A stretch of DNA of 64,000 nucleotides from positions 1 through 64,000 of the forward strand of contig CALUPV010000005.1 of assembly GCA_944322745.1 (NCBI GenBank), given 5' to 3'. This stretch comes from Candidatus Gastranaerophilales bacterium. Its GTDB lineage: Bacteria; Cyanobacteriota; Vampirovibrionia; Gastranaerophilales; Gastranaerophilaceae. The notes under the pieces are model-generated. The model was not told the DNA's origin. It saw only the letters and a list, made by a program, of their open reading frames with translations, and did not search any database. Shown one piece after another: positions 9,687 through 11,669 of this stretch. Position numbers and translations under genes: made by a program. How positions within the stretch are numbered: the first letter of the stretch is position 1; the number at the start of each line of letters is the position of its first letter.

Positions 9687-9715
9687 GAAAAGAGGAAGCA
9701 TTGCTTCCTCTTTTT
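9687..9715. terminator. bidirectional terminator between fabF and the HCP-like gene
   Basis: The stem AAAAGAGGAAGC/GCTTCCTCTTTT has A and T runs on both sides, and the convergent gene's stop codon (9714-9716) overlaps its edge. It can serve both strands. Confidence 0.88.
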
Positions 9716-11318
9716 ATTTTATAGAATTAATATTTTCAACAGCATTTGTTATTTTTTTGACATTAAATAGTTCGGATAATCCATCAATTAATACTGGATT
9801 TATTATATTAGGACAACATGGTCCTAAGAAAATATTATTTATTTCTAAATGAATTAAATTAAATATATGTGCAATGGTAGTAGCGTTACAATCAGTTATG
9901 AAAACACTAATTTTTTTGTTGATTGATGGATTTTTTTCTATTAAGGTTTCAATTATTTTATATACGACAGAAAAATCAAAATATGAGTTTACATGCCATA
10001 AATTTTCTCTTTTTCTATTGTATGAAAGTGAAATGATGTAATTATTATCAGGGCAATGTTCTAAAAAATCATTTATATATTTATTTGAATGATTGAATTG
10101 ATCTATTATGCCAATTATAAATATATTTTTAATTTCTTTTTGTTTTATTTTATCTAAGATTATATCAATTTTTTTATTTAGTTCTTCTACATCATATCCT
10201 ATTTTAATTTTGTTAATTTCTTTTTCATTTTCAAATCCTTTTGAATCAAGAGCATATTTAATTAAGGGATCAAAGTTGTTATTTTCAATTTTTGCAATTC
10301 CAAAGGCCGGATATTTTTCTGCGGTATATATCTGCCCTCGTATTACATCTATTTTGGGTACTGAATTCCCGGATATATATATTGGACCTGGAAATGAGGC
10401 AAAATCTAGTTGGAAATTATTATCTGATTTTTGATAATGACCAACTAAATTTGTAAATTTTGAAAATTGTTTATATTGAAATGCGCTAATCATTTCGTGG
10501 TGTGTATATACATTTATATTTAAGCCTTTTACTGCAATAAGTATTTTTTCTAAATCAAGAAAACTGTTTCCTGAAACAAGTATAGCCTTACCTCTTTTCT
10601 TGCATAATGGTACAGTTATTTCGCATACAGGACCAAATTTTTGGATTATGGTATTATATAGTAATTTCATAATTTTGTAATTACATTTTGAAAAATTTTT
10701 TATAACAGATATCAAATCTTTATCTGTTAAATCTGGGAAATTAGTTGTATTTAGTAGCTTTAAAACTTCGTTTTTTGCTTCAGGAAAATCTATTTTATAA
10801 TTTTTTAATTCAATTAAACAATTGCACGAATTTAGTACAAGGTTAATCATTATTTCATATAGATTTTTTTTATTTTTATCTAGCTTTATTTTTGAAAATT
10901 TTTCTTGAATATTTTTTTCTTTTTCATTTAAAGCTTTTAGTATAACATCTCTGGAAGAATAATTTTCTTTATTTTCAGGAATTAATTCTGCTTTTTGGTT
11001 CACCTTTTCACAAGCAGAAATATACATTTTTTCAAGCATTTTTTTATTATTATATAAATCTTCTATTATTACAAAGAAACTTTCCTTCCTAAAATCAAGA
11101 TTTACTATCAAAATTGAAATGAACTCAATTACTTTGTCTGTGTATAAACTCATATCAATTTCTAATTCTTTTAATTTTTCTATATAAAAAACGATTTGTT
11201 GAAGTTCAGAAACAAATAGTTCTTTTATTGCAGTAACATATGGATCAAATGCAAAAATGGTAGGTGTATTTGCCCCTACGCATAAAGAATCATAGTAATT
11301 AAAAAATTTATTCATCAT
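9714..11318 (-). CDS. hybrid-cluster-protein homologue lacking the metal ligands
   Basis: A 534-residue protein aligned by eye to the hybrid cluster protein/hydroxylamine reductase family. Matches are strongest at KAILVSGNSFLDLEKIL, VYTHHEMISAF (residues 270-280), NLVGHYQ, FPGPIYISGN and NNIFLGPCCPNIINPVL (494-510). Yet the residues that hold the hybrid Fe-S-O cluster are mostly gone: the family His is Asn251, only Glu275 remains, TTNC is now SGNS (Ser319), GC at about 404 is GI, and the later Cys, Cys, Glu and Lys ligands are missing. The N-terminal CxxC-type 4Fe-4S motif is also absent. It is therefore probably not a hydroxylamine reductase. It starts one base after the glutaredoxin gene stops. 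Confidence 0.72.
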   Translation of the reverse strand: MMNKFFNYYDSLCVGANTPTIFAFDPYVTAIKELFVSELQQIVFYIEKLKELEIDMSLYTDKVIEFISILIVNLDFRKESFFVIIEDLYNNKKMLEKMYISACEKVNQKAELIPENKENYSSRDVILKALNEKEKNIQEKFSKIKLDKNKKNLYEIMINLVLNSCNCLIELKNYKIDFPEAKNEVLKLLNTTNFPDLTDKDLISVIKNFSKCNYKIMKLLYNTIIQKFGPVCEITVPLCKKRGKAILVSGNSFLDLEKILIAVKGLNINVYTHHEMISAFQYKQFSKFTNLVGHYQKSDNNFQLDFASFPGPIYISGNSVPKIDVIRGQIYTAEKYPAFGIAKIENNNFDPLIKYALDSKGFENEKEINKIKIGYDVEELNKKIDIILDKIKQKEIKNIFIIGIIDQFNHSNKYINDFLEHCPDNNYIISLSYNRKRENLWHVNSYFDFSVVYKIIETLIEKNPSINKKISVFITDCNATTIAHIFNLIHLEINNIFLGPCCPNIINPVLIDGLSELFNVKKITNAVENINSIK

Positions 11319-11319
11319 A

Positions 11320-11592
11320 TTAAACCTGATTTTCTAATAATTTATCTAGTTCACCTGATATATTCATTTTATTTAAATCATCATAGCCGCCAATGCGTTT
11401 ATTACCGATTATAATTTGTGGTACAGTTACGCGTCCTTTAATACCATAGTATTCGCCTAAATTATTACGGTATTCTTCTTCATTTTCTGAAATATCAATT
11501 TTTCGATAATCGAGACCTTTCTCTTGAAAAAGCATTTCGGCCTTTTTACAGTACGGACAGTAGTCTACAGTATAAATAATAATGTTTTTCAT
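11320..11592 (-). CDS. grxC: glutaredoxin
   Basis: A 90-residue dithiol glutaredoxin with the CPYC active site (VDYCPYCKKAEML), the TVPQIIIG cis-Pro strand and GGYDDLNKM near the end, typical of GrxC/Grx3-type proteins. It reduces protein disulfides or glutathione mixed disulfides. It is the first gene of a two-gene unit with the HCP homologue (1-base gap), which links the latter to redox chemistry. A perfect inverted repeat sits upstream. Confidence 0.92.
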   Translation of the reverse strand: MKNIIIYTVDYCPYCKKAEMLFQEKGLDYRKIDISENEEEYRNNLGEYYGIKGRVTVPQIIIGNKRIGGYDDLNKMNISGELDKLLENQV

Positions 11593-11607
11593 ATAAAATA
11601 TCCCAAA

Positions 11608-11636
11608 GTCATAACACTAATAAATTATGTTATGAC
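11608..11636 (-). promoter_or_regulatory. inverted repeat upstream of grx
   Basis: GTCATAACA and TGTTATGAC are 9-bp perfect arms separated by 11 bases. The repeat is 15 bases upstream of the glutaredoxin start and 33 bases after the stop of the TPR gene on the same strand. It could be an operator or, less likely because no T-run follows, a terminator for the TPR gene. Confidence 0.5.
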
Positions 11637-11669
11637 TATATAAATATTTTATTAGCCGTAAGAATATAA

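Follow-up and report, generated by a model that had tools for sequence, protein, structure and literature searches.

A hybrid cluster protein homologue that has lost its hybrid-cluster ligands is often encoded next to a glutaredoxin in Gastranaerophilales

Introduction

Hybrid cluster proteins (HCPs) have been studied for long, and their physiological role is still under debate. The known reductase partner of HCP is the flavoprotein Hcr, as encoded by E. coli hcp-hcr, whereas the homologue described here is accompanied by a glutaredoxin (Grx). Structural work on MmHCP, a class III HCP, has shown that the loops carrying Glu434 and Trp461 pack on the cubane domain and that loss of the cubane cluster in the C67Y variant shifts these loops by 5.3-5.8 Å towards the cubane-domain space (PMC10502027). 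In the CODH cousins of HCP, the core cluster Cys residues are highly conserved, and relatives of Ni,Fe-CODH with incomplete C-cluster motifs are known as structural groups (PMC6344411). These relatives belong to the same fold superfamily and provide a precedent for losing individual active-site residues; however, their B-cluster Cys and the three C-terminal C-cluster Cys are, with few exceptions, still present (PMC6344411), while in the protein examined here the whole site is gone.

We analyzed a stretch of 64,000 nucleotides from a Candidatus Gastranaerophilales bacterium (contig CALUPV010000005.1, positions 1 to 64,000), referred to as the window herein. Its named close relatives are Candidatus Gastranaerophilales, Candidatus Avigastranaerophilus among them, which points to a gut-dwelling member of the order. 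A literature search, with preprints and most subscription journals outside its coverage, returned no paper in which HCP is linked to Gastranaerophilales or to the term "pseudoenzyme", and none that links Melainabacteria to "hydroxylamine reductase". The window protein and its relatives thus make up a subfamily of the HCP/CODH superfamily that has apparently not been described before, set apart by a missing hybrid cluster and an added set of Cys residues.

Results

An intact ORF on the minus strand of the window (9,714-11,318) encodes a 534-residue protein, which an earlier note made from the DNA letters had described as an HCP homologue. Our profile, PDB, alignment and model comparisons bear this out. 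The protein matches Pfam Prismane (PF03063) with an E-value of 2e-21 (76.6 bits, cut-off 27), which places it in the family, and the NCBIfam hydroxylamine reductase profile with an E-value of 8e-54; a phmmer search of the PDB returned E. coli HCP (7de4, E 3.5e-35). On the NCBIfam equivalogs TIGR01703 and PRK05290, it scores 175 and 183 bits, below the cut-offs of 361 and 367. Scores of 140-198 bits on these equivalogs are typical of the family protein, in contrast to the more than 700 bits of a canonical copy (708 and 753 bits for L044, from a relative).

Structure prediction and overlay, as the earlier note had proposed, gave a model with the HCP fold. The AlphaFold2 model (pLDDT 83, pTM 0.84) has 1e1d as its top Foldseek match (E 4e-26), and HCPs lead its PDB matches (Z 28-37, TM 0.77), with CODHs ranking next at Z ∼19. 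It superposes along its full length on class I/II HCPs (Z 28-29), sharing their three-domain fold at 20-27% identity, and on the class III core (Z 37). A model of the divergent orthologue L110 reached a pLDDT of 90, a pTM of 0.90 and Z-scores of 31-40 to HCPs. The N-terminal Cys segment was predicted with a pLDDT below 50.

To map the hybrid-cluster ligands, we aligned the window protein with E. coli HCP and with relatives carrying full ligand sets, using D. vulgaris numbering. In this alignment E. coli HCP and the canonical HCPs of the relatives retain every ligand, and of the seven only E268 (window E275) is left in the window protein. H244 is replaced by N251, C312 by S319, C406 by I405, C434 by Y433 and E494 by N478; C459 is replaced as well, by Y446 in the larger alignment. 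The earlier claim that only a Glu was left of eight ligands therefore holds for the Glu but not for the count. This Glu varies among the relatives, the position being Glu in 14 of 28 orthologues from the genus and in 14 of 100 from other genera. No hybrid-cluster ligand position is conserved across the 128 orthologues, and deeper alignment restored none. We rejected a misalignment that hides the true ligands, as the alignments, of 49 to 148 sequences, contained full-ligand HCPs and E. coli HCP. On the strength of these replacements, we infer that the window protein is probably a catalytically inactivated HCP, where a functional one would be expected to have NO/hydroxylamine reductase or S-nitrosylase activity.

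The N-terminal cubane motif had been reported as missing. Of the four Cys residues that bind the [4Fe-4S] cluster in functional HCPs, three are indeed absent, but C13 (codon at 11,280-11,282, minus strand) aligns with the third and is Cys in 128 of 128 orthologues. In our first alignment C13 appeared to have been gained de novo with Cys 3 lost, a reading that we dropped when the larger alignment paired the two; the genus carries a 3-residue insertion near C13, which makes the C13/Cys 3 match alignment-dependent. Across the family the CxxC half of the motif is absent from all orthologues, which separates them from HCPs, and the C-x5-C half is retained in most genera (98 of 100 orthologues from outside the genus, where cubane Cys 4, at position 22, is likewise Cys in 98 of 100) with its spacing unchanged.

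Six Cys residues that the earlier note had overlooked in its reading of the ligand loss are invariant in the genus: C13, C103, C165, C477, C501 and C502. C103 (11,010-11,012, minus strand), in a domain 1 helix, is Cys in 28 of 28 genus sequences and 88 of 100 others; C165 (10,824-10,826, minus strand) in 28 of 28 and 38 of 100; and C477 (9,888-9,890, minus strand), which precedes the E494-ligand position, in 28 of 28 and 94 of 100. C501 and C502 lie side by side in a GPCCPN motif (9,813-9,818, minus strand), C501 with the same counts as C477 and C502 restricted to lineages without cubane Cys 4. Five positions are thus predominantly Cys among the 128 orthologues, namely C13, position 22, C103, C477 and C501, of which C477, C501 and C103 are gains relative to HCP. 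Cys is tied with Leu and Phe as the second commonest residue type after Gly in those alignment columns whose conservation reaches at least 90%. The description of the protein as stripped of all metal ligands is consequently too strong, since half of the cubane motif is kept in the family and the new conserved Cys could provide thiols, form disulfides or bind another metal.

In the model, C477 and C501 both sit directly behind consecutive strands, C501 in the loop that follows the last Rossmann strand, where canonical HCP has GPTLPAF. By residue counting, with no gap assumed, the Glu434 and Trp461 loops of MmHCP appear to be the counterparts of the loops with C477 and C501, which should then pack near the N-terminal C-x5-C segment. 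By this analogy C13/C22 and C477/C501/C502 would lie close together in one patch.

On the tree, C477 and C501 disappeared jointly four times, each time on an independent branch, and in no case was one lost without the other (four events, sign test p 0.125), which would be the pattern expected of a pair. The lineages concerned (L100/L140, L127, L130 and L186/L187) all keep the C-x5-C segment, and L130 has other Cys residues near the lost pair, at 473 and 478. A second association concerns cubane Cys 4. A Cys vicinal to C501 was found in 30 of 30 sequences without Cys 4 and in 0 of 92 with both Cys 4 and C501, a table whose Fisher p value ignores relatedness and which comes down to independent events in two lineages. 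One of them, made up of g1 (the window's genus) and its sister g41, lost the position-22 Cys and gained C502; in the other, L099, that Cys was lost as well and Cys500 gained.

Upstream of the HCP-like ORF on the same strand, we found a 90-residue dithiol Grx with a CPYC active site (11,320-11,592, minus strand). The ORF coordinates confirm that a single base separates the two genes, as had been noted, and they are presumably in one operon. The active site and a match to Pfam PF00462 (E 3.4e-18) identify it as a dithiol glutaredoxin; its 86.2 bits on TIGR02181 fall just below the cut-off of 90. It shares the active site and the Pfam match with glutaredoxin 3/GrxB-like proteins and differs from them in the position of its gene, directly ahead of that for an HCP-fold protein. 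The coupling to Grx that the earlier note had proposed is seen as adjacency. Each of the 30 distinct complete loci of the genus has a co-directional Grx directly upstream, as do 57 of the 100 loci read from other genera, with gaps mostly of 0-20 nt; the remaining 43 of these 100 have no Grx neighbor. The neighboring Grx is of two subtypes, being Grx3-like in g1, g41 and g42 and, in all other cases, a short protein of the GrxB/GST_N-like type. Its presence or absence requires six changes on the tree. These do not track C477/C501 retention: two of the four lineages without the pair (L100/L140 and L127) still have the Grx. In the window's genome the operon Grx is the only one above the Pfam cut-off and may thus serve more than the HCP-like protein. 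A 160-bit match to GSH-S_ATP, the glutathione synthetase ATP-grasp family, in the same genome suggests that the host makes glutathione.

A perfect 10-bp inverted repeat, AGTCATAACA-N11-TGTTATGACT (11,607-11,637), lies 14 nt before the Grx start and is possibly an operator or leader element. A different repeat, C(C/T)GATAAT...ATTATC(G/A)G, occurs upstream of Grx in five relatives (L018, L020, L023, L029 and L030); in several relatives it abuts the ribosome site and is itself a possible operator or leader. A TPR gene lies 77 bp upstream of Grx on the same strand. At the other end, between the convergent fabF-like and HCP-like genes, is a terminator-like hairpin of 13 pairs (9,687-9,715, reported on the plus strand), whose near-symmetric sequence may act on both strands.

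The earlier view that this is unlikely to be a dead gene is upheld by selection and breadth. Pairwise dN/dS was 0.05-0.13 (∼0.1) in 12 scorable orthologue pairs, a thirteenth (L119-L120) being saturated at synonymous sites. A homologue search recovered relatives sharing the ligand loss across the host family: orthologues are present in most genomes of the window's genus, where some of the 38 matches are fragments or belong to canonical HCP (G023 and G002, for example), and in 61 of 64 and 79 of 80 genomes sampled from other genera, with intact ORFs in ∼29 genera. The degenerate orthologues form one clade with full support, apart from canonical HCPs, and the window protein is 23-41% identical to those of other genera. 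Outside the host family, matches in the phylum sample all scored within the range of canonical HCPs, which is indicative only as the query alignment contained canonical rows. Of 170 family genomes sampled, ∼60 have a canonical HCP; none was found in the window's genome. One family genome (G111) has two degenerate HCP-like copies (C2 and C17).

Canonical HCP genes of relatives (L044, L045, L035, L038, L039; L033, L034, L036, L037, L047) sit behind an Rrf2-like regulator or a ferredoxin-like ORF, both named by eye from translations, an arrangement that the degenerate copy does not have. Sister-family HCPs of the same order likewise belong to the HCP fold family and have lost several ligands, but retain others: L032 (f7) has the complete set of four cubane Cys together with E268, C312 and C406; L040 (f7) keeps C-x5-C, E268 and C312; and L042 and L043 (f6) keep C406 and C434. 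Ligand loss in f7 and f6 is partial and has apparently advanced to different degrees, and in L032 the C501 position is already occupied by Cys.

Discussion

We propose, with a probability of about 0.42, that a catalytically dead HCP scaffold has been kept and turned into a Cys-based redox protein served by Grx. The C-x5-C segment (C13, with the position-22 Cys in most genera) would face the Cys residues of the domain-3 loops (C477 and C501, plus C502 in the window's genus) along the border of the former cluster sites. Reversible disulfides could then form between C477 and C501 and between C13 and C22, or C13 and C502 in the window's genus, and would report or transfer thiol oxidation in the form of disulfide, S-nitroso or glutathione adducts. 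The co-encoded Grx would reset them, using glutathione or thioredoxin reductase. We favor disulfides because C477 and C501 are lost as a pair and because the partner is a Grx, although the adjacency may mirror general Grx use, given that two of the four lineages without the pair keep the gene and that it is the sole Grx above the cut-off. For the family as a whole the claim can be broader, and we think it slightly favored by the odds that the entire family turned an enzyme of the HCP/CODH superfamily into a Cys-based redox protein, be it a Grx-coupled disulfide switch or a protein whose re-plumbed four-Cys cluster sits at a new position, and gave up the catalytic hybrid cluster on the way.

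That second form, a re-plumbed Fe-S or Zn site in the old cubane region acting as a redox or NO sensor, with Grx delivering or reducing the cluster, is the main alternative, if a tentative one. Its ligands would be the C-x5-C pair with C477 and C501 in the family, and C13, C477, C501 and C502 in the genus. What keeps it in play is that the number of Cys stays at four in both arrangements and that two of the family's four come from the cubane motif. It also fits the unchanged C-x5-C spacing, the packing of the Glu434 and Trp461 loops on the cubane domain of MmHCP (PMC10502027), and the gain of a Cys beside C501 where cubane Cys 4 was lost, in two lineages, as if ligand number were held. However, four losses of C477 and C501 with both cubane Cys staying are odd for a single four-ligand site. 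The type of Grx also speaks against it: CPYC glutaredoxins are thiol reductases, and it is the CGFS type that serves cluster transfer.

The protein could instead be a non-redox scaffold whose emptied cavity binds a small molecule or a partner protein, with the Cys residues structural. Strong conservation does extend to Gly, Phe and Pro of the central domain, evolution between genera is fast and the Grx neighbor is dispensable. We nonetheless regard this as unlikely, as Cys would be unusually frequent for a cytosolic structural role in being joint second commonest at positions conserved at 90% or more, and the pairing with Grx is frequent. That the protein regulates canonical HCP as a subunit, or acts as its decoy, in nitric oxide defense seems very improbable; homology and the genomes that carry both copies speak for it, but the degenerate copy is nearly universal where canonical HCP is confined to about a third of family genomes, and the two are not co-located in the loci we read. 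A pseudogene or annotation artefact, which would suit the lost ligands and the frameshift-like pieces in a few metagenome assemblies, we dismiss in view of the dN/dS values and the intact ORFs of ∼29 genera.

A selected, near-universal homologue without its catalytic site in uncultured gut bacteria shows that selection can maintain the HCP scaffold in the absence of the hybrid cluster. The family is a natural experiment on which parts of HCP matter, and a similarity-based label of "hydroxylamine reductase" would be wrong for these genes.
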